Source of the DNA: a virus
DNA: 43,469 bases
IMG/VR virus record: IMGVR_UViG_3300032893_000109
Coordinates: 1-43,469 of that record
Direction: 5' to 3' (one strand)
Shown: piece by piece, positions 1,573 to 31,674 of the stretch
Layout: each line of letters begins with the position of its first letter
Position numbering within the stretch: position 1 is the first letter of the stretch
Position numbers and translations under genes: made by a program
The notes under the pieces: model-generated
Databases searched by the model: none
The model's input: only the letters and a program-made list of their open reading frames with translations
What the model was told of the DNA's origin: nothing

Positions 1573-2010
1573 TTAGAGTTCCTTTCTGAACGTGGTCGAC
1601 ACCGCCCGGTAGTCGGGGTGTTGCTTTTGGATCCAGTTCCAACCGGGTCGGCCGGAAAATTCGATCGCGACGCAGTCGTGCGCTTTGGCAAAAGCCTCCA
1701 TGACGGTGATCCAATCGTCAAGCCAATGGCCGAGCTTACTGCCCGCCAGGAACTGCACCCACAGGATCTTGTGCAGTGGACGCTGTTGCACCGACGTCAC
1801 CACGATCGCCTGAAAGTCGCCGATCACCCACAACTGTGAGAGTCCCGAAATCAATTCGGAGTAGAGAGCCGAAGTCGAGTACCCCGTCATCGGTTTGATC
1901 ACCCGATGCAGCAACGGCAGCACGCGCTCCCACACCGCGCCAATACGCTCGGAAGGCACGCCGCCAATCGGAACCGTCAGATTCTTCGGCCATTTGTCGG
2001 CTTCGTTCAT
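1573..2010 (-). CDS. Acetyltransferase-like internal virion protein (T7 gp13-type)
   Basis: 145 residues. The fold reads like a GNAT-type domain: strands around LWVIGDFQAIVVTSV and LHKILWVQFLAGS, a helix DDWITVMEAFAKAHDCVAIE, then GRPGWNWIQK. Podophages often carry such a protein in the internal-core or tail region (T7 gp13-like), where it acts in virion assembly rather than as an enzyme. The start ATG overlaps the stop of the upstream gene (ATGA), and the stop is adjacent to the next ATG. Family assignment is by pattern only. Confidence 0.65.
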   Translation of the reverse strand: MNEADKWPKNLTVPIGGVPSERIGAVWERVLPLLHRVIKPMTGYSTSALYSELISGLSQLWVIGDFQAIVVTSVQQRPLHKILWVQFLAGSKLGHWLDDWITVMEAFAKAHDCVAIEFSGRPGWNWIQKQHPDYRAVSTTFRKEL

Positions 2011-2414
2011 TGCCGCCGCAGCGGCATGCCAGTCGCGCCCATGAGGAATGGATTCGGTGGAATCGGCCCTTGGCCCGGCGGTAGCACCGACGCGGCACCG
2101 GGCGGCATGAGTTGCGGATTCTGTTGCGCCAGCATCGGTGCGACCATCTGCGCCGACATCATGCCGTTAGGCGCGCCGGGGTTGATCGGCTGCGGCTGCA
2201 TCTGACCCATTTGCGGCAACGCACCGGGCTGATTCTGACTCAGTAACAGCGCGAGCGCGTTGTAGTAGCCGCCCATGCCGGGCGCCATCTGATTCGCCGG
2301 ACGGCCCGGATTGAGCGACGAAGCTGCCGCGAGCATCGCCGGAATGTACGGCGATGCCGCTGCTGGCACCTTCGTTCCGCTCGTCGTCTTGCCTGCGCCC
2401 GTCGTCGCGCTCAT
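2007..2414 (-). CDS. Proline/glutamine/methionine-rich small virion protein
   Basis: 135 residues, low complexity and probably largely disordered. It has many P, Q, M and A residues (LPQMGQMQPQPINPGAP and LPPGQGPIPPNPF). Start ATG overlaps the TGA of the stabilisation-protein gene (ATGA), and its own TGA overlaps the next ATG, so it belongs to one coupled block. No recognised domain. From its position between the neck protein and a gp13-like protein it is probably a minor structural or internal virion component. Confidence 0.65.
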   Translation of the reverse strand: MSATTGAGKTTSGTKVPAAASPYIPAMLAAASSLNPGRPANQMAPGMGGYYNALALLLSQNQPGALPQMGQMQPQPINPGAPNGMMSAQMVAPMLAQQNPQLMPPGAASVLPPGQGPIPPNPFLMGATGMPLRRQ

Positions 2415-3886
2415 CGATTACCCCCTGCAGGACTGACCGCGGCGCGTACACCTTGCGCGTGCGAAAAACCGCCGCTGATGTTCACACGATACCGTTGGTA
2501 GCGAGAGTTCGCACGCACGTTGGCGTTGCCGATCGAATCGACCGCGCGCGCCGGATCGAAGTTGACGTTGCCATTCGGCAGATTGCGTTTGCCGACTTGC
2601 ACGGTGATCGTCGTCGACGGCGTGCCATCGACGATCGGCGTGACCTGATCGCAGTACACACGCGAGCCGTCGCCGACGTCGTATTCCATCGTATCGATCG
2701 ACGCCGTCAACGGGGAGCCTGCGAACGTCGCCGTCTTGTGATCGGTGCCGAATGCCGCAAAGCCGAGCGAACCGCCTTTGTAGGCATCCGAATCGACGTT
2801 GATCGATTGCGCGTCGATGCCCGACGGGAACGGCGTATCGAGTTGATCGAGCGAGAGGCCCGACGACACATATTCCATCAAGAGTTCGGTGTTGAGTTCG
2901 CCGTAGGACCACCGATTCACCGCCCAGTTGTAGATGATGACGCGGTCGTTGTACGCGAGCGAACTCGAACTCGGGAAAGCCCACATCACCAAGCGGTTGC
3001 GGCGATCGACCGCGCCGCGCATGAGCATGCGCGACGCGTCGTCCGAGTTCTGCGTGATCCACGTGTCGACGCGACTGTTGCCGATCGGCTGCGATGGCCC
3101 CGGCAACGTGAACTCGTAGAAACCGTCGTGCGAGTAGTAGAAGCGCGTCGCGCCGAGCCAACACACCGAGTTCGGCGCGGGCGTGCCGCGGCCGACTTCG
3201 ACTTCGTCGAGTTGGAAGATCAGCGGCGGTCCGGTGTACTCCATCGCCCAGATCGAGTGCTCTTGGAAGATCGTGCCGACTTCACCGGGCACGATGCGCT
3301 GCACACGGCCACCTTTGCCGAACAGTTGTTGCCGGTCGGATTGCGTCGCGCGGCTCGGCGTCCAAATGGCGGCGTTGTTGTAGCCCGACCAGCCGATGAC
3401 GTCGGGTCCGTAGGCTTGCAGATCGCCGAGCACGACGAAGTCGCGCACGACAGCGATACGCTTGGCGTTGTACGGCGAGCCGGATTGATCGGCGAACGCC
3501 GACGACGAACCGACGACGTACGACTGCATCGGATCGCTGTAGTCGACCGCGAGCACGTTGTTACCGAACTTCGCGAATTCCCAGTTGGTCGACGTGTACG
3601 CGTGCAGCGACTTCGAGACGTTGGTCCACGTCGTGCCGGAATCGAGCCGATACAGATCCTGCGCGTCGCCGGCGAAGTTGTAGACAATGTTGCTCGTGTC
3701 TTGCAGCCAGATCGCACCGAGCGCGGCGGACGTCAGCGCCGTCGTGAACGACGCGAGCGAGTTGAGTTGTTGGTAGCTCTTGGCGCGCGGGATGCAGTTC
3801 TTCGCGAGGATCGCGCCGGGATTGGCGTAGTCCGGCAAGTCCGGCAGCCATTCGCCGAACGGGATCATCTTCGGCTGGGTCGCCAT
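2411..3886 (-). CDS. Packaged-DNA stabilisation / tail tubular protein (P22 gp10-like)
   Basis: 491 residues from the ATG at 3886, which overlaps the upstream TAA as TAATG. An in-frame extension to 4036 lies inside the upstream gene and is not coding. The N-terminus (MIPFGEWLPDLPDY then ILAKNCIPRAKSYQQL) and the repeated beta-rich blocks (VQRIVPGEVGTIFQEHSIWA, FYYSHDGFYEF, DRVIIYNWAVNRWSYGE) match the stabilisation protein family that seals the podoviral neck after packaging. Its position directly after the gp4-like adaptor supports this. Likely a propeller-type nozzle protein. Confidence 0.8.
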   Translation of the reverse strand: MATQPKMIPFGEWLPDLPDYANPGAILAKNCIPRAKSYQQLNSLASFTTALTSAALGAIWLQDTSNIVYNFAGDAQDLYRLDSGTTWTNVSKSLHAYTSTNWEFAKFGNNVLAVDYSDPMQSYVVGSSSAFADQSGSPYNAKRIAVVRDFVVLGDLQAYGPDVIGWSGYNNAAIWTPSRATQSDRQQLFGKGGRVQRIVPGEVGTIFQEHSIWAMEYTGPPLIFQLDEVEVGRGTPAPNSVCWLGATRFYYSHDGFYEFTLPGPSQPIGNSRVDTWITQNSDDASRMLMRGAVDRRNRLVMWAFPSSSSLAYNDRVIIYNWAVNRWSYGELNTELLMEYVSSGLSLDQLDTPFPSGIDAQSINVDSDAYKGGSLGFAAFGTDHKTATFAGSPLTASIDTMEYDVGDGSRVYCDQVTPIVDGTPSTTITVQVGKRNLPNGNVNFDPARAVDSIGNANVRANSRYQRYRVNISGGFSHAQGVRAAVSPAGGNR

Positions 3887-4524
3887 TAGACGATGACACC
3901 CGGCGGCGGCGTGATGACCTTGGCGTTGCCGCCATAGCGTTTGCGTTGCTCGGCGAGGTTGTACCGCTGCAGCGCGGCGTTGTAGCGGCCGTCGTAGCGC
4001 GCTTCGATCGTCTCTTCCTGCAGCCACGAACCGCATTCGCGCAGCGTCGCGAAGAGATACAGATCGTAGGCATTCACGAACAGCGAGTTAGTGCCGTTGG
4101 TGATGATCGACGGTAGTCCGGACCAATACTGCATCACCGCCGGCGTGGGGTTGCTCGGATCGCCGGCTGGCGCGAACGTGAACACCGGATTGCCGTTCGT
4201 GTCAGATTCGATCGTGTAGTAGAGCGTCTGTCCGCCGTCGTTCCACGCATCGACCAAGCGAATCATTTCCGGCGTCTGGTAGTCGATCTTCGTCGTCGTC
4301 TGATCGATGTAGAGCGCGATCATCGAACGGAAATCGGACGGCACCGAAATACTGCGAGCGTTGATCGACAGCGTTGCCGAACGGCTTTGCATCACGCCGT
4401 AGGCGTCACGACTGAGCGCGGCTTCGGCGAGCGTGACGATCGAGTCGATCGAGACACCGGTGACGGCAACGTCGTCGCGCGCGAGCCACGAATCGATGTC
4501 GACTTTGAACGCTGCGTAGCTCAT
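3886..4524 (-). CDS. Head-tail adaptor protein (P22 gp4 / SU10 adaptor-like)
   Basis: 212 residues. N-terminal helical part (MSYAAFKVDIDSWLARDD, then IDSIVTLAEAALSRDAY), central beta part (TLSINARSISVPSDFRSMIA) and C-terminal helices with LYLFATLRECGSWLQEE. This arrangement is typical of adaptors that bind below the portal ring and recruit the next tail component. It lies immediately before the gp10-like gene, with stop and start overlapping (TAATG). Assigned from pattern and gene order. Confidence 0.75.
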   Translation of the reverse strand: MSYAAFKVDIDSWLARDDVAVTGVSIDSIVTLAEAALSRDAYGVMQSRSATLSINARSISVPSDFRSMIALYIDQTTTKIDYQTPEMIRLVDAWNDGGQTLYYTIESDTNGNPVFTFAPAGDPSNPTPAVMQYWSGLPSIITNGTNSLFVNAYDLYLFATLRECGSWLQEETIEARYDGRYNAALQRYNLAEQRKRYGGNAKVITPPPGVIV

Positions 4525-4956
4525 TCACCACACCGTGACGATCGTATACCGGGGCGCGACCAATTCTTGCACAGGCACCCGGTGCCGGATACCGCCCGGA
4601 CAGATGATCATCGTGCCGGGTTGGATCAGGTGCGCGGTTTCGTCATCCGGCTCACCGGTGATCAGCGGCGCGCCGCCCGACAAGTAGTAGAAAACGGTCA
4701 TATCGTAGCTCGCGTCGTAATGCGGCGCGATGATCTGACCCTTTTCCATCTTGATGCCGACGGCACGCATCGGCTTTGACTGCTTCGGCACGATCGCCGC
4801 ACTCTTCGCCATGATGCGTTTGACGGCGTCCGGCGGGTCAGCCTCTTCAGGGGTCGACCAACTGCGATCGCGCGGAATTTTGGCGCGTTCGATCCACGCG
4901 ATCGCAGCCAGTCGAGTCTCGTCGTCGAGCGTCGCGTCGAAACGCGCCGCCGTCAC
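4525..4956 (-). CDS. 2-oxoglutarate/Fe(II)-dependent oxygenase-like protein
   Basis: 143 residues, GTG start overlapping the TGA of the upstream gene (GTGA). The C-terminal half shows the iron-binding triad and cosubstrate residue of the prolyl-hydroxylase-like superfamily: H79-Y-D81, distal H125 in GGIRHRVPV, and R136 about eleven residues later in APRYTIVTVW. The strands between (MTVFYYLSGGAPLITGE, HLIQPGTMIICPG) fit a double-stranded beta helix. Such enzymes hydroxylate proteins or bases using 2-oxoglutarate and oxygen. The substrate is unknown. The gene is embedded among head genes with no metabolic neighbours, which suggests a virion protein substrate (inference). Confidence 0.75.
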   Translation of the reverse strand: MTAARFDATLDDETRLAAIAWIERAKIPRDRSWSTPEEADPPDAVKRIMAKSAAIVPKQSKPMRAVGIKMEKGQIIAPHYDASYDMTVFYYLSGGAPLITGEPDDETAHLIQPGTMIICPGGIRHRVPVQELVAPRYTIVTVW

Positions 4957-5276
4957 AGCTTATTGACGCCGGTGCGGAGGTTTTTGTAGTCCGACGAGTT
5001 GATCTTCATCGTTTCGAACGTCGCCCACGTGAAGTGCTGGCGGTACTTCTCGCGCCATTCCTTCTTCCAAAGCATGTATAGCCCGATCGGAATGTGCGCC
5101 GCGTGGCGCGCGAAGCCAGCTTTGTTGTGGCCGAAGTCGCGCAGCGCCTTGGCGTGATCGAGGTGGATCTGTTCGATCGCGGTGGGCGTGAACTCTTCGG
5201 TAATTAGCTCGTCGTCGCTGACGTGCGTGCGATGCTGAATACCGGTCGGCGACGTGAAATCAAGAAACGTCTTCAT
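4953..5276 (-). CDS. Hypothetical protein, 107 aa
   Basis: No recognised family. N-terminal strand (MKTFLDFTSPTGIQHRTHV), then a helical, aromatic and basic middle (YMLWKKEWREKYRQHFTWAT). ATG start. It overlaps the end of the upstream gene by 17 bases and is coupled to the oxygenase gene by a GTGA overlap. The tight coupling suggests co-production with, and possibly a partnership with, the oxygenase. Confidence 0.65.
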   Translation of the reverse strand: MKTFLDFTSPTGIQHRTHVSDDELITEEFTPTAIEQIHLDHAKALRDFGHNKAGFARHAAHIPIGLYMLWKKEWREKYRQHFTWATFETMKINSSDYKNLRTGVNKL

Positions 5277-26193: not shown

Positions 26194-26412
26194 TTAGAAA
26201 AAGGTCGGTTTGGCAATGGCGCGGGTGAGCGCCATCAACCCTTCTTGCAAGTGGGTGCGGCCGATTGCCACCCAACGCGGGTCAGCATCCGCCGGCATTG
26301 ATGCGACCAAATCACCGAGCGCAACACCCTGCTCTTTGATCCGGTTCATCCGATCGATCTCCTCTTGCGACAGTTCGCGGTAGCCCTTGATCTGACGATG
26401 TTGGTTATCCAT
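26194..26412 (-). CDS. acb2: Acb2-like anti-CBASS cyclic-nucleotide sponge
   Basis: 72 residues: HRQIKGYRELSQEEIDRMN, IKEQGVALGDLV, DPRWVAIGRTHLQEGLMALT, RAIAKPTFF. This matches the small all-helical Acb2/Tad1-hairpin family. Its characterised members bind cyclic di- and trinucleotides in a hexamer and keep CBASS effectors inactive. The family pattern RxL-xxEEI-xxMN-xIK and the L-x-x-G-x-M-A-L-x-R-A-I-A-x-P end are intact. The gene lies in the middle of the leftward early and replication block, suited to early expression. Recognised from memory of the family, not by search. Confidence 0.75.
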   Translation of the reverse strand: MDNQHRQIKGYRELSQEEIDRMNRIKEQGVALGDLVASMPADADPRWVAIGRTHLQEGLMALTRAIAKPTFF

Positions 26413-26413
26413 G

Positions 26414-26605
26414 TCAGTGGTTCCACTTCGCCGCGTTGCGCGCGAAGTTCGCTTTCTTCTTCATCTTCGGCGACGCCTTGCTGCCGGGTGCCAGTTCCTT
26501 CGCCGCGAACGCTTGCACACCCATGCCGGCTTTCTTCGCCGCCTTGGTGAATGTACCGCGGTTCGCCTTCTTGATGGTGCCGATCTTTCCGCCTTTCTTC
26601 GCCAT
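26414..26605 (-). CDS. Small basic protein, 63 aa
   Basis: ATG 26605 (an upstream in-frame start overlaps the HNH-AP2 gene and is rejected). Lysine-rich N-terminus MAKKGGKIGTIKKANRGTFT, then AAKKAGMGVQAFAAKELAPG and a conserved-looking ending NFARNAAKWNH. Small basic proteins with this ending are common in phages; probably nucleic-acid binding. Directly upstream of the Acb2-like gene. Confidence 0.65.
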   Translation of the reverse strand: MAKKGGKIGTIKKANRGTFTKAAKKAGMGVQAFAAKELAPGSKASPKMKKKANFARNAAKWNH

Positions 26606-26606
26606 G

Positions 26607-27101
26607 TCAAACTCCGTGGTTGGGGTGAAAACCGAACTCGCGCTCGGCCTTTTTGCGTGCGGCAACTGCCGCGTCGAACTCCTTGAACCGTCCGAGATAG
26701 TAGCGCTTACCGCGGTAGCCGATCATGGCCGACCACGCACCGTGGTTCTTCGTCACACCGGCAACACCAGATGTGTTGCGCGCATCGAGTCGCTTGTTGA
26801 GATTGTTGGTGTGCTCGGCAACTTCACGTAGGTTCTGCCATGCGTTGTTCAATCCGTCGTGGTCTATGTGATCCACGCGCAAGGGCCAACGATCGAGCAT
26901 GTAGAAGAAAGCGAGACGGTGTGCGAGATAGCGGCGGTAATCGATCGTGATGCCGATGTACCAGCTTTTGCTTGAACGGCCACCCGACTGCACGCGACCG
27001 CCTGCAAGCTCGCGACGACGTCCGGCTTTCGTATCATTCCACCAGAAAAAGCCTGTGATCGGATCGTAGGTGACAATGGTCCGAAGCTGCTGAGGCGTCA
27101 T
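26607..27101 (-). CDS. HNH-AP2 homing endonuclease
   Basis: 164 residues from ATG 27101, which overlaps the TGA of the DNA polymerase gene (ATGA); the longer in-frame start at 27158 lies inside the polymerase gene. N-terminal part has TYDPITGFFWWNDTKAGRR, a family signature. HNH core YLAHRLAFFYMLDRWPLRVD then HIDHDGLNNAWQNLREV. C-terminal AP2 DNA-binding domain SGVAGVTKNHGAWSAMIGYR then YYLGRFKEFDAAVAARK. It sits immediately after the intein-bearing polymerase, as a third endonuclease at this locus. Confidence 0.85.
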   Translation of the reverse strand: MTPQQLRTIVTYDPITGFFWWNDTKAGRRRELAGGRVQSGGRSSKSWYIGITIDYRRYLAHRLAFFYMLDRWPLRVDHIDHDGLNNAWQNLREVAEHTNNLNKRLDARNTSGVAGVTKNHGAWSAMIGYRGKRYYLGRFKEFDAAVAARKKAEREFGFHPNHGV

Positions 27102-30100
27102 TTTGTATAGTATGGTCCTGCATCGATAGTCGCGGATAAGGGCAATCCGGCAGCCCATTCAGGCAAGAAAAGCATGTTTTCTTTTAGCCGTTCTCGCCAA
27201 AGGTATTCGTCCGCTTCAGCAACCTCAAGAACTATCTCGTCGTGTACGTGAAGAATGCAGGAATCTGAAAGTTGTGAGAGAGCCCGGCGCAAAAACGATG
27301 CGGAGGTGGCCTGTGTGACGTTTTCGCAGTTGTGGACGATGAGCGGTTGTCCATCACGTCCTCGAACAACAAATTGGTGTAGCGGGCCACAATTCAGGAT
27401 GTCGTAGACTTCCGCCGTCTGTTGTTCGCCTGTTCGATACGAGTCGCCCAGCGGCAGTTCTTCGGTGTGTAGTTGCCGTTGTTGTTCCGACGATCGAGGG
27501 TGAGTCCTTTTACGTAGGTGGGATGCATGTCGCGCCAAAAATTCTCGAAACGCAACCATCGGCGACAAACCGAAATCCCGCGACCGCCGTAATTCTTCCA
27601 CGCTCGATGTCGTGGGTTCGTGCATCGAGCTTTCATGGAGCGCCACACCCAGTACAACGGGTGCTGCGTCAGTCCGTGGGTACGACGTGCCGCCGCTAAC
27701 TGAATGCGCACCTTGCAACCGCAAGAATGATCGGAACGCCGTTTTAAATCGCCGGCCGCCACGGTATGAGATTTCCCGCACACGCAGCGACAAACCCAAA
27801 ACAAACCGCGTCGCGGCGGACGCCGGAGTGGCGTTAACGCCGTCAGGTAGCCGAACGTTTTGCCGCTTAAGTCCTCGGCGTTGTGCTTCGCTTGCTGTGT
27901 TCCAACCTTCATGTGTGAGTACCAGGTGATCTGGAGTCATCAAGACACCGTACACGTCAATAGTACCTCTCTTACCGTTCCGTACCACTCCTGAATGCAC
28001 AACCCAGTTTTCACCGTCCCAAACACGATCTGCGGCGGCAACGCTTTCGATGGGAATCCAGCCGCGCGAGGTTAAAACCTCGGTGCCACGCGCTATGCAG
28101 AGGGTGCCGTACCAGAGTTCCACGCGAGCGATGCCCGCGCTAAATCCTTTGACAAACGTAGTGCGGATTCGCGTGATGCCGTCTTCAGTCTCATAGCGTT
28201 CTCGTTTCAGTTGCGGGTAGACGATCCAACGGCCGCACGGCAACGCGCAGATCATCGTGCCGCGCATCAATGCCGGGTGGAACAGATAGCGCACGCGTCC
28301 GGCTCGGAACCATTCGCCGGGGTGTTGCCAGGCGCCGACGAATGCTCCCCATAGAGCATCCCAGAAGTCACGAGCCCAACTGTTGACGCGCCGCCATCCG
28401 TCGACGATAGCTCGCACTTGTTCTTCGGGGAGAGCGACGCCGTAATTCCGTCCCATCGCCGCAAACGCGCCGACGCTTCCCCCGAAACCAAGCGCAAGTT
28501 CGGGTACTTTTCCGTACGCTTGTCGTTCATGTGCGGTGATCTCCTCAACGGCTTTGCCCAAAATGCCGGCGGCCATGATCTTGTACACCGGCGCACCGGT
28601 GCGGAATAGCTCGAGCTTTGCCTCGGCGCCAGGCGAGTCGGCGAGCCACGGCAACACGCGCGCTTCGATCTGATCCCAATCGCCCCACACGAGCACCTTA
28701 CCTTCGGGCGCGATGAAGGTGGGTCGGATCAGTCGAGCCAACAGCCGTGACATCGGCAGTTCGTAGACGTCTTCCAACGACTCAGCCGAGGCGCCGGCGA
28801 GAATGTCTTCGATCGCATCCATCGCGCGATCGGGATCGTCCGCATCGAGCGGCGCGCGAATTAGGTTGTGGATCTGGACCCCGCGACTAGAGTTGTGGTG
28901 CGCTACGCCTTCTGAAACGTAGCTGTGATCTCCGCTAACACAGATGTCCCAAACTGTTCTTTCTCCCACAGAGACAACCCACGTAATTTCTGGGCGTGCA
29001 ACAATTGATGCCCGCGCTTCGTCACCAACGCGAAGTTGTCGGGGCGATTGTCGGTTGGATCGTCGTTGATGTGGTGAATCTCCCAACCAACCGGCCAACG
29101 TTTCAGTCTGAGTTCTTTCATCAATACGCGGCGATGCTCGTACACGTACTGCTGCGTTTCGTGATCCCACGACGCCAGATATTTTGCGCGACGAATTGGA
29201 CCACCCGCTTTCCGCAAACCAAACATCGGATTGCGTGTACCGAGTTTCGAGCGCGAGTGATTCGCTCCACGACGTTTCTTGCGCGTTGCTTCGTCGACAT
29301 CCTCCGCGATGATGCGGCGAATCGTTTCGTAGCTCGTTTGCCAGTGCTGCGCAATTTGGTCGATCGTCTCGAATTGCTTCAGGTATCGATCGACTACCTG
29401 ACGCCGAAACGTTTTGTCGCGCAAAAGATTCGAGTTCGCTGACATGCCGCCATTCCCCGTCGTGCCAAATTCGGTGGCCGGCGGTACACGTCACGTGACC
29501 ACCGTGGGCGAATTCGATGCGATACATCGCTTCGACGCCTTTGGTACATTTTGACACAACCGGCCTGTATCGGCCACAATGTGTCAGCACGAAATCGCCG
29601 ACGGCTATCTGATCAATACGTATCGGTCCGCGCGCGGTTTCGATTAGAGTTGCAGCATCGACACAAAATCGTCCCGTCTGTCCCGCGCCGTTGAAGGAAT
29701 ACGAACCATGCACACGCCCATCACTGCACACCTGATTGGCTATAGCCGTGAACTTGCGAACAGCAGCGCTGTTTCCCGCTTCCAAGATCCCCAGAAATGT
29801 GACGATGCGCGACAAGTGCACGTCGTCAAACAGTTGAGCGAAGTCTGGATTTGCCAGTGCGGTCGCTACCGCTTCGCGGGTGCTTCGATCAGCACTTTGA
29901 CGGGCAGTCTCAACGCCATTTTTCTCGCGCGGCGGTCGGATGACGAGCGCCTGTAGTTCCGGTGACGGCCACAACTGATCGCGCAGCCACTTCGCTTTCA
30001 GCACGTGGTTGGTGACGGTGAGATTTTCGATGCCGGTCAACTCGAATAGTTGCCGGTTGAGATCGGCATTCTCGGCGTTGGCGTAGCGCATCGCGGCGCG

Positions 30101-30736
30101 CGCGAAATCGTGATCGACGGCGACGCCGCGATCGTTGATGCGTTCCGAGGCGTGATACTCGGCCCATTCATCGAGCGTCAGCGGGCGCGTTGAGTTCCAC
30201 ACGTTGCGCATGACTTCGGTGTCCTTCGCGCCGTACGCGCGAAAGCGGCCGAGCTTGGCGTGATTCGCCGGGTTCCAATCCTCACGCGTGCCGTGCGACA
30301 GTTCCGCAATCAGCCCTTTGCCGGCGCGATCCTTCGCCGGCAGTCCCAACGCTTCGCACGCTTTCTCGAGCTTGCCCGGCAAGTTGTTCGCTTCGGCTTG
30401 CGCCTGCGCGCACAGCCATTGTTCCGGACGCGTGCGCGGCCATTGGTAGTCGCGCCGCGTCATCACTTCATTCCAGATGTGCCGATCGAAAAATGCGTTC
30501 CACGCGATCAGGTAGCCGCCGTCGGCGACGTGATCGAACAGATCGAGCAGTGCGGCGGGCGCTTGATCGTCGCTACCCCAACACCACCACGGCGACCACA
30601 CGTGCGCCGGTTCGTTGTCGAATGCCCACGTCCACACCAACACGTCCGTCGATGGGTCGCGCGCGTACTTGTACGCACCGACCGCTTTCAGATCGGCGAG
30701 CGAGCGCGTTTCGCTATCGAGAAACACGAGCGTCAC
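27098..30736 (-). CDS. Family A DNA polymerase precursor containing two inteins
   Basis: 1212 codons; GTG start overlapping the stop of a small upstream gene. N-terminal 3'-5' exonuclease: FLDSETRS at 5-12 and GGYLIAWNAFFDRHIW at 73-88. Intein 1 (358-615) interrupts the conserved T-G-R-x|S-S motif (QTGRF then SSRGVQIHN). Polymerase motif A is VWGDWDQIEARVLPWL (683-698), motif B ERQAYGKVPELALGFGG (737-753). Intein 2 (880-1136) interrupts WYGTL|CENVTQATS. Motif C is LHVHDEIVLEV (1162-1172). After splicing, 697 residues remain, a normal size for a phage PolA. It replicates the genome with the PrimPol-helicase. Confidence 0.92.
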   Translation of the reverse strand: MTLVFLDSETRSLADLKAVGAYKYARDPSTDVLVWTWAFDNEPAHVWSPWWCWGSDDQAPAALLDLFDHVADGGYLIAWNAFFDRHIWNEVMTRRDYQWPRTRPEQWLCAQAQAEANNLPGKLEKACEALGLPAKDRAGKGLIAELSHGTREDWNPANHAKLGRFRAYGAKDTEVMRNVWNSTRPLTLDEWAEYHASERINDRGVAVDHDFARAAMRYANAENADLNRQLFELTGIENLTVTNHVLKAKWLRDQLWPSPELQALVIRPPREKNGVETARQSADRSTREAVATALANPDFAQLFDDVHLSRIVTFLGILEAGNSAAVRKFTAIANQVCSDGRVHGSYSFNGAGQTGRFCVDAATLIETARGPIRIDQIAVGDFVLTHCGRYRPVVSKCTKGVEAMYRIEFAHGGHVTCTAGHRIWHDGEWRHVSELESFARQNVSASGSRSIPEAIRDDRPNCAALANELRNDSPHHRGGCRRSNAQETSWSESLALETRYTQSDVWFAESGWSNSSRKISGVVGSRNAAVRVRASPRIDERTQTETLAGWLGDSPHQRRSNRQSPRQLRVGDEARASIVARPEITWVVSVGERTVWDICVSGDHSYVSEGVAHHNSSRGVQIHNLIRAPLDADDPDRAMDAIEDILAGASAESLEDVYELPMSRLLARLIRPTFIAPEGKVLVWGDWDQIEARVLPWLADSPGAEAKLELFRTGAPVYKIMAAGILGKAVEEITAHERQAYGKVPELALGFGGSVGAFAAMGRNYGVALPEEQVRAIVDGWRRVNSWARDFWDALWGAFVGAWQHPGEWFRAGRVRYLFHPALMRGTMICALPCGRWIVYPQLKRERYETEDGITRIRTTFVKGFSAGIARVELWYGTLCIARGTEVLTSRGWIPIESVAAADRVWDGENWVVHSGVVRNGKRGTIDVYGVLMTPDHLVLTHEGWNTASEAQRRGLKRQNVRLPDGVNATPASAATRFVLGLSLRVREISYRGGRRFKTAFRSFLRLQGAHSVSGGTSYPRTDAAPVVLGVALHESSMHEPTTSSVEELRRSRDFGLSPMVAFREFLARHASHLRKRTHPRSSEQQRQLHTEELPLGDSYRTGEQQTAEVYDILNCGPLHQFVVRGRDGQPLIVHNCENVTQATSASFLRRALSQLSDSCILHVHDEIVLEVAEADEYLWRERLKENMLFLPEWAAGLPLSATIDAGPYYTK
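27329..28099 (-). mobile_element. Intein 2 of the DNA polymerase (257 residues)
   Basis: Starts with Cys880 in CIARGTEVLTSRGWIPIESV (block A), block B near MTPDHLVLTHEGW (residues about 933-945), C-terminal block F-like AEVYDILNCGPLHQFVV and block G ending LIVHN at 1136. The +1 extein residue is Cys1137. All residues needed for standard splicing (Cys1, block B His, penultimate His, terminal Asn, Cys+1) are visible. Between blocks B and F the intein frame is not recognisable but stays open. That interval is the +1-frame endonuclease gene at 27394-27912. Confidence 0.9.
27394..27912 (-). CDS. HNH endonuclease nested in the +1 frame of intein 2
   Basis: 172 residues from ATG 27912. N-terminal FGYLTALTPL, zinc-finger cysteines C41, C43, C45, C64 and C66 (VCRCVCGK, SCGCK), then HPLYWVWRSMKARCTNPRHR, WKNYGGRGISVCRRW, and HNH core LTLDRRNNNGNYTPKNCRW (137-155) followed by QANNRRR. 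This is the full-length pattern of a widespread phage HNH family, so it is a real protein, not a shadow. The ATG lies in intein block B and the stop precedes block F. No clear SD; expression may use coupling or weak initiation. Confidence 0.88.
   Translation of the reverse strand: MKVGTQQAKHNAEDLSGKTFGYLTALTPLRRPPRRGLFWVCRCVCGKSHTVAAGDLKRRSDHSCGCKVRIQLAAARRTHGLTQHPLYWVWRSMKARCTNPRHRAWKNYGGRGISVCRRWLRFENFWRDMHPTYVKGLTLDRRNNNGNYTPKNCRWATRIEQANNRRRKSTTS
28892..29665 (-). mobile_element. Intein 1 of the DNA polymerase (258 residues)
   Basis: Starts with Cys358 in CVDAATLIETARGPIRIDQI (block A); block B VTCTAGHRIW (415-424). C-terminal blocks ITWVVSVGERTVWDICV and SGDHSYVSEGVAHHN end at Asn615 with penultimate His; the +1 residue is Ser616. 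All canonical splice residues are present. The central part (about 440-580) is low-complexity R/S-rich and has no LAGLIDADG or HNH motif in this frame. It is the other-frame reading of the endonuclease gene at 28903-29445. Confidence 0.9.
28903..29445 (-). CDS. HNH endonuclease nested in the +1 frame of intein 1
   Basis: 180 residues from ATG 29445. N-terminal helix-turn-helix-like part (FETIDQIAQHWQTSYETIRR), NUMOD-like TRNPMFGLRKAG, HNH core WEIHHINDDPTDNRPDNFAL (121-140; H124, H125, N133, N137) with downstream H146 and H150. Complete and typical, so coding. It starts just after intein block B and runs to four codons before the intein end, so its last 35 residues share DNA with the C-terminal splicing blocks. 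The +1 frame is the same relative frame as in intein 2. The weak upstream GGGG is the only SD-like sequence. Confidence 0.88.
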   Translation of the reverse strand: MSANSNLLRDKTFRRQVVDRYLKQFETIDQIAQHWQTSYETIRRIIAEDVDEATRKKRRGANHSRSKLGTRNPMFGLRKAGGPIRRAKYLASWDHETQQYVYEHRRVLMKELRLKRWPVGWEIHHINDDPTDNRPDNFALVTKRGHQLLHAQKLRGLSLWEKEQFGTSVLAEITATFQKA

Positions 30737-30876
30737 GATGGCGTGCTTTTCTTTAACGCCCGATTGAGTCGGTACATGACGCCGGACAAATTTCCGTCTA
30801 CCGTCTTCAGCGCCCTTGGTTCGCGGCGCTTGCTACGCGGTTTACGGTGTCCCGCTGTCTTGTGGGGCTTTTTCAC
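30733..30876 (-). CDS. Small basic protein upstream of DNA polymerase, 47 aa
   Basis: GTG 30876, stop TGA overlapping the GTG of the polymerase gene (GTGA). Begins MKKPHKTAGHRKPRSKRREP and ends with a helix (SGVMYRLNRALKK). The stop/start overlap and fit into the gap support it. The SD is weak. A hairpin lies just upstream. It may couple polymerase translation. No family recognised. Confidence 0.5.
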   Translation of the reverse strand: MKKPHKTAGHRKPRSKRREPRALKTVDGNLSGVMYRLNRALKKSTPS

Positions 30877-30887
30877 GACGAAAGATC

Positions 30888-30906
30888 GGGGGCGCAATGC
30901 GCCCCC
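30888..30906 (-). terminator. Hairpin between the 251-residue gene and the polymerase operon
   Basis: 8-bp GC stem GGGGGCGC / GCGCCCCC with a 3-base loop, 12 bases after the upstream stop. Leftward it is followed by GATCTTTCG (short T-run), rightward by TTTCCTT. Probably a partial terminator or attenuator that lowers polymerase expression. Confidence 0.55.
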
Positions 30907-30918
30907 TTTCCTTCTCGG

Positions 30919-31674
30919 TTACGCCGTCGCACGACGACGTCGCCGAGCACCCGCGGCAGCTTCGGGCGACGCGGCGGCTGGGGAGGCGGTGGCGTCGGCC
31001 TGTGCAGGCGGGGGTGTTGCAGCCGCAGCCGGCGTGGCTGCAACCGGAGCCGGTTGTGCGGCTGCCAGCGCCGGTGCGGGGGCACCGACACTGTTTCCTT
31101 GCGCGTCGATCCAACGCAGCACCGAGAGCACGGGCGTGAAGGTCAACCCGTGTTTCTTGTGCTGGTAGGAATCGACGCCGAGATCGATCACCGGATACGG
31201 GTGCGCCGGATCGGTTTGCACTTGCTGCATGATCTCGACGATCAATTTCTTGATCGCTGATCGGAAGCCGAGCGCAGTCGATTTGTAGAGCACGGTGACG
31301 CCTTCGTCTTCGCCGTTCAGACATTTCAACTCGACCGATGCTTCCTGCTTCCATTCGCCGCCGTAGTCCGGCAGCGCGTTGCGGTCGGGCGCCGGCAGAT
31401 TGAACGGCACCAACTGTTCGCCGAGCAATTCGCTGTCCACCCAGCACGCGTAGCCGTGCTGCAGTGTGTGCAAATTGACGGCCCATTCGCTGCCTTCCTC
31501 CACGGCCAGATTCTCCGGACCGAAGACGAACTCGCCGGACTTGATCAACCGCAGGATGGGCAGACCGCCGCCGATACCGGATGCGATGTTGCCGCCCATG
31601 TTCTGCAGCCCCTTCATCAGCTCGGCCGGGTTGGCCGGTAGGTGCGAACCGAACGTAGCTATTTCCTGACTCAC
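30919..31674 (-). CDS. Putative single-stranded DNA-binding-type protein with Ala/Pro-rich tail, 251 aa
   Basis: GTG 31674 overlapping the TGA of the DUF2800 gene, with GGAG nearby; the longer in-frame ORF is only a shadow. Beta-rich body (GGLPILRLIKSGEFVFGPEN, EEGSEWAVNLHTLQHGYACW, KKLIVEIMQQVQ, TFTPVLSVLRWI). Then comes a flexible Ala/Pro tail of about 55 residues ending in RRRRR. A gene in this place, beside a DUF2800 nuclease, is often a ssDNA-binding protein (DUF2815-like), but I do not see the usual signature. Assignment is by context only. Confidence 0.55.
   Translation of the reverse strand: MSQEIATFGSHLPANPAELMKGLQNMGGNIASGIGGGLPILRLIKSGEFVFGPENLAVEEGSEWAVNLHTLQHGYACWVDSELLGEQLVPFNLPAPDRNALPDYGGEWKQEASVELKCLNGEDEGVTVLYKSTALGFRSAIKKLIVEIMQQVQTDPAHPYPVIDLGVDSYQHKKHGLTFTPVLSVLRWIDAQGNSVGAPAPALAAAQPAPVAATPAAAATPPPAQADATASPAAASPEAAAGARRRRRATA

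Follow-up and report, generated by a model that had tools for sequence, protein, structure and literature searches.

The viral DNA analysed here, a stretch of 43,469 nucleotides referred to throughout as the window, carries on its minus strand a phage DNA polymerase gene that is interrupted by two inteins, the first of which encloses a second gene in another reading frame. The features of the polymerase gene, of this first intein and of the gene nested within it are as follows.

27098-30736, minus strand: host gene for a phage family-A DNA polymerase, interrupted by two inteins (ORF of 1212 aa)
28892-29665, minus strand: intein 1, 258 aa, from C1 to HHN|S (Hint_2, E=4.1e-9; gp41-1 match at both ends)
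29446-29665, minus strand: N-terminal Hint segment with blocks A and B and the TAGH motif, free of overlap with HNH1
28919-28957, minus strand: block F of intein 1, TVWDICVSGDHSY, traversed by the open HNH1 frame
28892-28912, minus strand: block G, EGVAHHN, containing the HNH1 stop codon (28903-28905)
28903-29445, minus strand: HNH1, nested gene for an HNH endonuclease of 180 aa, stop codon included in the coordinates, in the +1 frame with respect to the polymerase
29005-29100, minus strand: HNH_3 motif, HNH1 residues 116-147 (PF13392, E=4.2e-11)
29454-29458, minus strand: Shine-Dalgarno-like GGGGA, a putative ribosome-binding site 8 nt upstream of the HNH1 ATG

The polymerase was assigned by its matches to DNA_pol_A (Pfam, E=3.5e-13) and PHROG 17 (E=5.7e-69). 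In translation, intein 1 is bounded as YSFNGAGQTGRF|CVDAATL...SEGVAHHN|SSRGVQIHN. Two homologues of the host polymerase (L002 and L003, 62% identity), which carry neither intein, read GQTGRF|SSRGIQVHN at the empty site and thereby set both ends of intein 1 to the exact codon, and in other relatives with both exteins matched the N- and C-exteins abut at this site. The signature is that of a class 1-like intein, namely the N-terminal Cys of CVDAATL, the TAGH of block B, VWDICVSGDHSY and AHHN|S, and the gp41-1 intein aligns to residues 2-65 and 227-258. Judged from these sequence features, intein 1 is a mini-intein, consisting of the Hint splicing domain only, which sits at the polymerase motif TGRF|SSRGVQ and is predicted to splice. 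An AlphaFold2 model of intein 1 from single-sequence input had a mean pLDDT of 37.5. A search for group I introns (RF00028) at 26400-31000 gave no match; a RAGATH-8 match at 30263-30384 (minus strand) is weak, at 19 bits versus a gathering score of 87, and is probably due to chance.

HNH1 has an HTH-like N-terminus followed by the HNH_3 motif. Its matches to Pfam HNH_3 and to PHROG 7545 (E=2.1e-18), together with 42% identity across residues 1-180 to the nested HNH of L119, a sequence on the same contig as L243, mark the ORF as a real gene. Residues H124, H125, N133, N137, H146 and H150 are invariant in two alignments (A2 and A4), and several relatives have GAGG- or GGAGG-like motifs upstream of the HNH start. 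AlphaFold2 modelled residues 111-150 with a mean pLDDT of 80-84, versus 58-63 in the tail, which was modelled as a helix; Foldseek with this model returned no match at E<=0.001. With HNH1 alone or the Hint N-terminus alone as query, no relatives were found in IMG/VR or GTDB genomes, and the relatives from these collections were recovered by profile queries only.

The initial annotation placed the HNH1 stop four codons before the end of the intein and the last 35 endonuclease residues over the C-terminal splicing blocks. The former is borne out, the TAG at 28905-28903 leaving 11 nt (3.7 codons) to the end of intein 1. The latter is close: at 34 residues, the C-terminal Hint segment (PEITWVV...HHN) overlaps HNH1 residues ~147-180.

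The same polymerase gene holds a second intein with a nested gene of its own.

27329-28099, minus strand: intein 2, 257 aa, at the insertion site of the APSE-1 and GB2A polymerase inteins
27394-27912, minus strand: HNH2, a +1-frame HNH nested in intein 2 (PHROG 374, E=1e-58), with its stop 21.7 codons before the intein end

HNH2 belongs to a different family from that of HNH1. A third HNH ORF (26607-27158, minus strand; PHROG 99, E=2e-49) shares 61 nt with the 3' end of the polymerase gene, and three HNH genes are thus found in or on one polymerase gene of the window. Other polymerase genes vary this layout. In the polymerase ORF of L120 (the same as L245) at 1593-5258, a second intein-like insertion seemingly has its HNH motif in the host frame (HEVDHINGDASDWRRRNLQ), which would place in-frame and out-of-frame endonucleases within one gene. 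L076 (4134-5000) shows a third polymerase intein site, at which the nested HNH lies in the +2 frame and stops 7.3 codons before the end of the intein.

Overlap of the endonuclease tail with the splicing segment

Fifteen polymerase inteins carry an HNH of the HNH1 type (the window, L243-L252, L255, L258, L259 and L261). In all 15, the HNH is in the +1 frame and reaches into or beyond the start of block F, and its stop lies 3, 7-8, 14 or 16 codons ahead of the terminal HN.

The simplest alternative to a functional overlap is pure read-through, according to which the working enzyme ends soon after HxxLH (residue 150) and the other 30 codons are translated for want of a stop. We consider this unlikely, although a good deal speaks for it. 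Among intron-borne and free relatives, conservation of the protein ends at HxxLH (H150 of HNH1), and the residues that follow number 11-14 in the intron-borne Dor1 and I-PfoP3I and 8-10 in JingP1 and MJW, both of which lack an RF00028 match, compared with 30 in HNH1. Homologues that stop well short of such a tail exist, the very finding that the initial annotation had named as its refutation, and the last HNH1 residues are accordingly not essential to the wider HNH family. Where intron-borne HNHs continue into a seemingly conserved tail (ATTISKESTLKW...), its codons belong to the 3' core of the group I intron: Infernal places RF00028 matches across the tail, the DNA of which reads GCAACGACTAT...GATATAGTC, and the I-PfoP3I ORF extends from P6a to P7, supplying parts of P7.1 and P7.2 (PMC3428280). 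A candidate tail homology with the intron HNHs, the KE at HNH1 residues 162-163, was rejected, the intron codons concerned being ribozyme core. Nor is an open tail remarkable by itself, the chance of the +1 frame staying open for 30 codons past the HNH motif being P=0.55 or 0.49 in two estimates when the synonymous codons of the intein are randomised; for all 15 inteins to be open through block F is rarer, with a product of 7e-4 when the inteins are treated as independent. The four different stop positions among the intein-borne relatives would also suit read-through.

What speaks against it is the choice of codons. The intein protein of each sequence was held fixed, synonymous codons were drawn from the usage of its own gene, and the similarity between sequences in the HNH frame was scored; within the overlap, each base in third position of an intein codon stands second in an HNH codon. 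Columns of the tail are numbered from the W of VWDI in the block F region, and the tests treat the sequences as independent given their proteins. Over W-15 to W+3 (19 columns, 15 sequences), HNH-frame similarity exceeded the null by z=7.4. This excess sits before block F, with z=9.6 over W-15 to W-4 versus z=-0.1 over W-3 to W+3 (14 sequences), so that block F lacks a family-wide excess, as read-through would have it. Spread across several columns, the excess peaks at L, W and E of the motif LxxWE (z of 5.2, 6.2 and 5.9), which overlies the intein strand and turn VVSVGE. An acidic residue at the E of this motif requires the glycine codon GGA in the intein frame, and 12 of the 13 members with glycine at that column use GGA, a codon that accounts for 0-23% of their glycine codons elsewhere.

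Control windows of 19 columns at the end of the N-extein and in the N-terminal Hint segment, drawn from ten genes, gave z from -2.9 to 0.5, the N-terminal Hint segment thus showing +1-frame conservation without excess; in the same ten genes, the 19 tail columns gave z=5.3 and the columns preceding block F gave 7.4. The +2 frame is also in excess in the 19-column test (z=6.2) but shares the same third positions, and it is for this reason that other regions, and not the +2 frame, were relied on as controls. That these controls are clean speaks against an excess due to shared ancestry, while being no substitute for a phylogenetic model.

Within the subclade of the window (the window, L243, L244 and L246), the signal runs further, with z=8.8, then 4.5 (W-3 to W+3), then 3.4 (W+4 to W+13), the last of these being the weakest, at z=1.9 with three sequences. 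Subclade controls on three of the four members gave z from -0.8 to 0.9. Over the stretch so covered, both frames are 51-69% identical in any pair of members, and in block G there is no HNH-frame excess (z=0.4). Constraint on the HNH frame within block F thus appears confined to the window's subclade, on the evidence of its four sequences.

In the reverse test, the HNH protein was fixed, its synonymous codons were randomised and similarity in the intein frame was scored. Over HNH residues 1-150, this similarity was at chance level (z from -2.1 to 2.0), and the intein frame held no stops in the HNH body of 12 sequences, compared with about 60 expected; in the window alone, the host frame had no stops across HNH1 against 5.1 expected (P=0.003). 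Intein-frame similarity then rose to z=4.1 over HNH1 residues 151-163 and to z=11.9 over block F.

The two tests together divide the nested gene into three zones. In the HNH body, the endonuclease protein is constrained and the intein frame has only to stay open. The approximately 13 codons that precede block F are under constraint in both frames. In blocks F and G, the intein dominates, with HNH constraint through block F in the window's subclade only. The second zone corresponds to a single stretch of the window.

28961-28996, minus strand: doubly constrained stretch, the HNH1 tail as far as LxxWE, lying over the strand and turn of the Hint domain that precede block F (intein residues 224-235)

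Dual coding is therefore real and is strongest across these approximately 13 codons. The codon-level alignment of related inteins that had been proposed as a check finds each frame more constrained than the other frame alone would make it. The initial annotation held that the same bases must serve two proteins along the whole of the C-terminal splicing blocks; this stands for the codons before block F and, in the subclade, for block F itself, but fails for block G. Once the intein-borne relatives and the codon test (z=9.6) were at hand, read-through was dropped as the main account. Past about residue 165, it still accounts fairly well for the tail in relatives outside the window's subclade.

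Less probable still, to the point of being very doubtful, is that the TGGGAR bases before block F are a nucleotide signal, such as a ribosome-binding or nuclease-recognition element, instead of reflecting constraint on endonuclease codons. TGGGA is almost constant and looks like a Shine-Dalgarno core, but the HNH-frame excess extends over several columns beyond W and E, and two members without TGG (L255 and L261) still keep the E in the HNH frame. Moreover, the HNH1-like ORF of L321, which no Hint domain encloses, has the C-terminus MTMAEAIKYL, resembling the AE tails of these two members.

Intein-borne and intron-borne relatives

The intein-borne HNHs form one clade (support 98/96), which also includes a single member from outside inteins, L321. 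Most of the intron-borne HNHs fall in another part of this unrooted tree, and the separation of the two groups implies at least one change of vehicle, in either direction. The nearest kin of the window are L243 and L244 (95/95), together with L246, a fragment that was left out of the HNH tree. Among relatives in which the N-terminal splice site was located, insertions occur at TGRx|S, TGRxx|S, TGRxS|C and TGRxxS|S, and the Pf-WMP3 intron, at TTRLSSSKP|N, is 15 bp further downstream than intein 1 of the window. At L321 (~3100-4046, in a Verrucomicrobia MAG), a polymerase-like ORF ending at TGRSSSR precedes the HNH1-like ORF, around which neither a Hint domain nor a group I intron match was found. 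This locus may be a decayed element or some other vehicle at the same polymerase motif.

That HNH1 is itself carried by a group I intron, with a fortuitous resemblance to an intein, is scarcely credible: the annotated phage relatives examined are in DNA polymerase genes in all but one case, and most have a group I intron match, but RF00028 gave no match in the window or in eight intein-borne relatives, the intein blocks are complete, the empty sites are exact and the host frame is open all through.

We give about an even chance to a broader scenario, in which one HNH lineage aimed at the polymerase motif TGRxS...QN has switched between group I introns and inteins. Once intein-borne, its C-terminus would have become overprinted on the splicing segment, so that in the window's subclade the endonuclease and the splicing domain would no longer evolve independently.

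Proposed mechanism and known systems

The arrangement in the window is best read, with a good measure of confidence, as an intein that holds a +1-frame HNH homing-endonuclease gene in its middle, the tail of that gene being overprinted on the C-terminal Hint segment. Translation in the polymerase frame would yield the N-terminal Hint segment, a long linker that is stop-free and otherwise unconstrained, and the C-terminal Hint segment; in the precursor, this linker would be the endonuclease gene read out of frame, and the Hint domain would splice itself out of the polymerase. Separate translation from the internal ATG at 29445, behind the Shine-Dalgarno-like GGGGA, would produce the 180-aa HNH enzyme. 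This enzyme most likely nicks or cuts intein-less polymerase alleles near TGR...QN, and repair would then copy the intein, resulting in homing. Cleavage and homing are presumed by analogy with I-PfoP3I, which nicks at its intron site (PMC3428280), and from a patchy distribution. The bases equivalent to those of I-PfoP3I lie downstream of intein 1 and are not split by the insertion, and the site of HNH1 therefore probably differs. Of the last ~30 HNH1 codons, which are overprinted on the C-terminal Hint segment, the first ~13 are under selection for both proteins family-wide.

On the prevailing view, inteins go through cycles of endonuclease loss, in part because the cutting and the splicing functions reside in parts that can be separated. 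Where codons are shared by HNH1 and the Hint domain, many changes in the overlap would strike both at once, and the intein-borne HNH family thus offers a natural test of whether overprinting slows the decay of the endonuclease. A single endonuclease lineage at one target would also tie group I introns to inteins. Gene callers easily overlook HNHs that are nested out of frame, and the mobility of phage inteins is probably under-counted.

Two further sources, Gorbalenya's 'Non-canonical inteins' of 1998 and a 2025 preprint by Gosselin et al. on actinobacteriophage inteins of non-canonical architecture, reportedly deal with unusual intein and endonuclease arrangements and overlapping frames, as their titles and the paper that cites them (PMC11855218) hint. 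In the searchable literature on out-of-frame intein endonucleases, we found no account of the HNH1-type intein family, of a tie between it and the HNHs of polymerase introns, or of dual coding measured where an endonuclease tail overlaps the splicing segment of an intein. Out-of-frame HNHs in phage insertions are already known from ShiLan (PMC11855218), the one paper that the literature searches turned up, as are out-of-frame HNHs inside inteins from database entries such as P45/P46 of APSE-1. The arrangement that had initially been considered unusual is not unique to intein 1: an out-of-frame HNH that reaches the C-terminal Hint segment occurs also in intein 2, in APSE-1, GB2A and SFCi1, and in many metagenomic inteins. 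An out-of-frame nested HNH looks like a common and under-annotated architecture of inteins.

The polymerase inteins of APSE-1 (P45 with nested P46), Caulobacter phage GB2A and Shewanella phage SFCi1 resemble intein 1 in having a nested +1-frame HNH, which stops 21-25 codons before the intein end, but differ in HNH family (PHROG 374) and insertion site; those of APSE-1 and GB2A are orthologues of intein 2 in the window. The gp41-1 mini-intein (PDB 6qaz, 6riz), whose Hint halves align with intein 1, has 128 residues and no nested gene. The ShiLan domain of mycobacteriophage DNA methylases (PMC11855218) likewise has an out-of-frame HNH in an insertion kept open in the host frame, with weak HNH similarity to HNH1 (E=0.01, Mantra); according to its authors it lacks an intein splicing domain, whereas a complete Hint domain encloses HNH1. 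The intron HNHs of the I-PfoP3I type (Pf-WMP3) are homologues within PHROG 7545, form the sister group in the tree and share the same polymerase motif, and their ORF also enters the 3' core of its own splicing element. In their case, however, the vehicle is a group I intron positioned 15 bp downstream of the intein site, and the ORF overlaps ribozyme RNA instead of sequence for a second protein.
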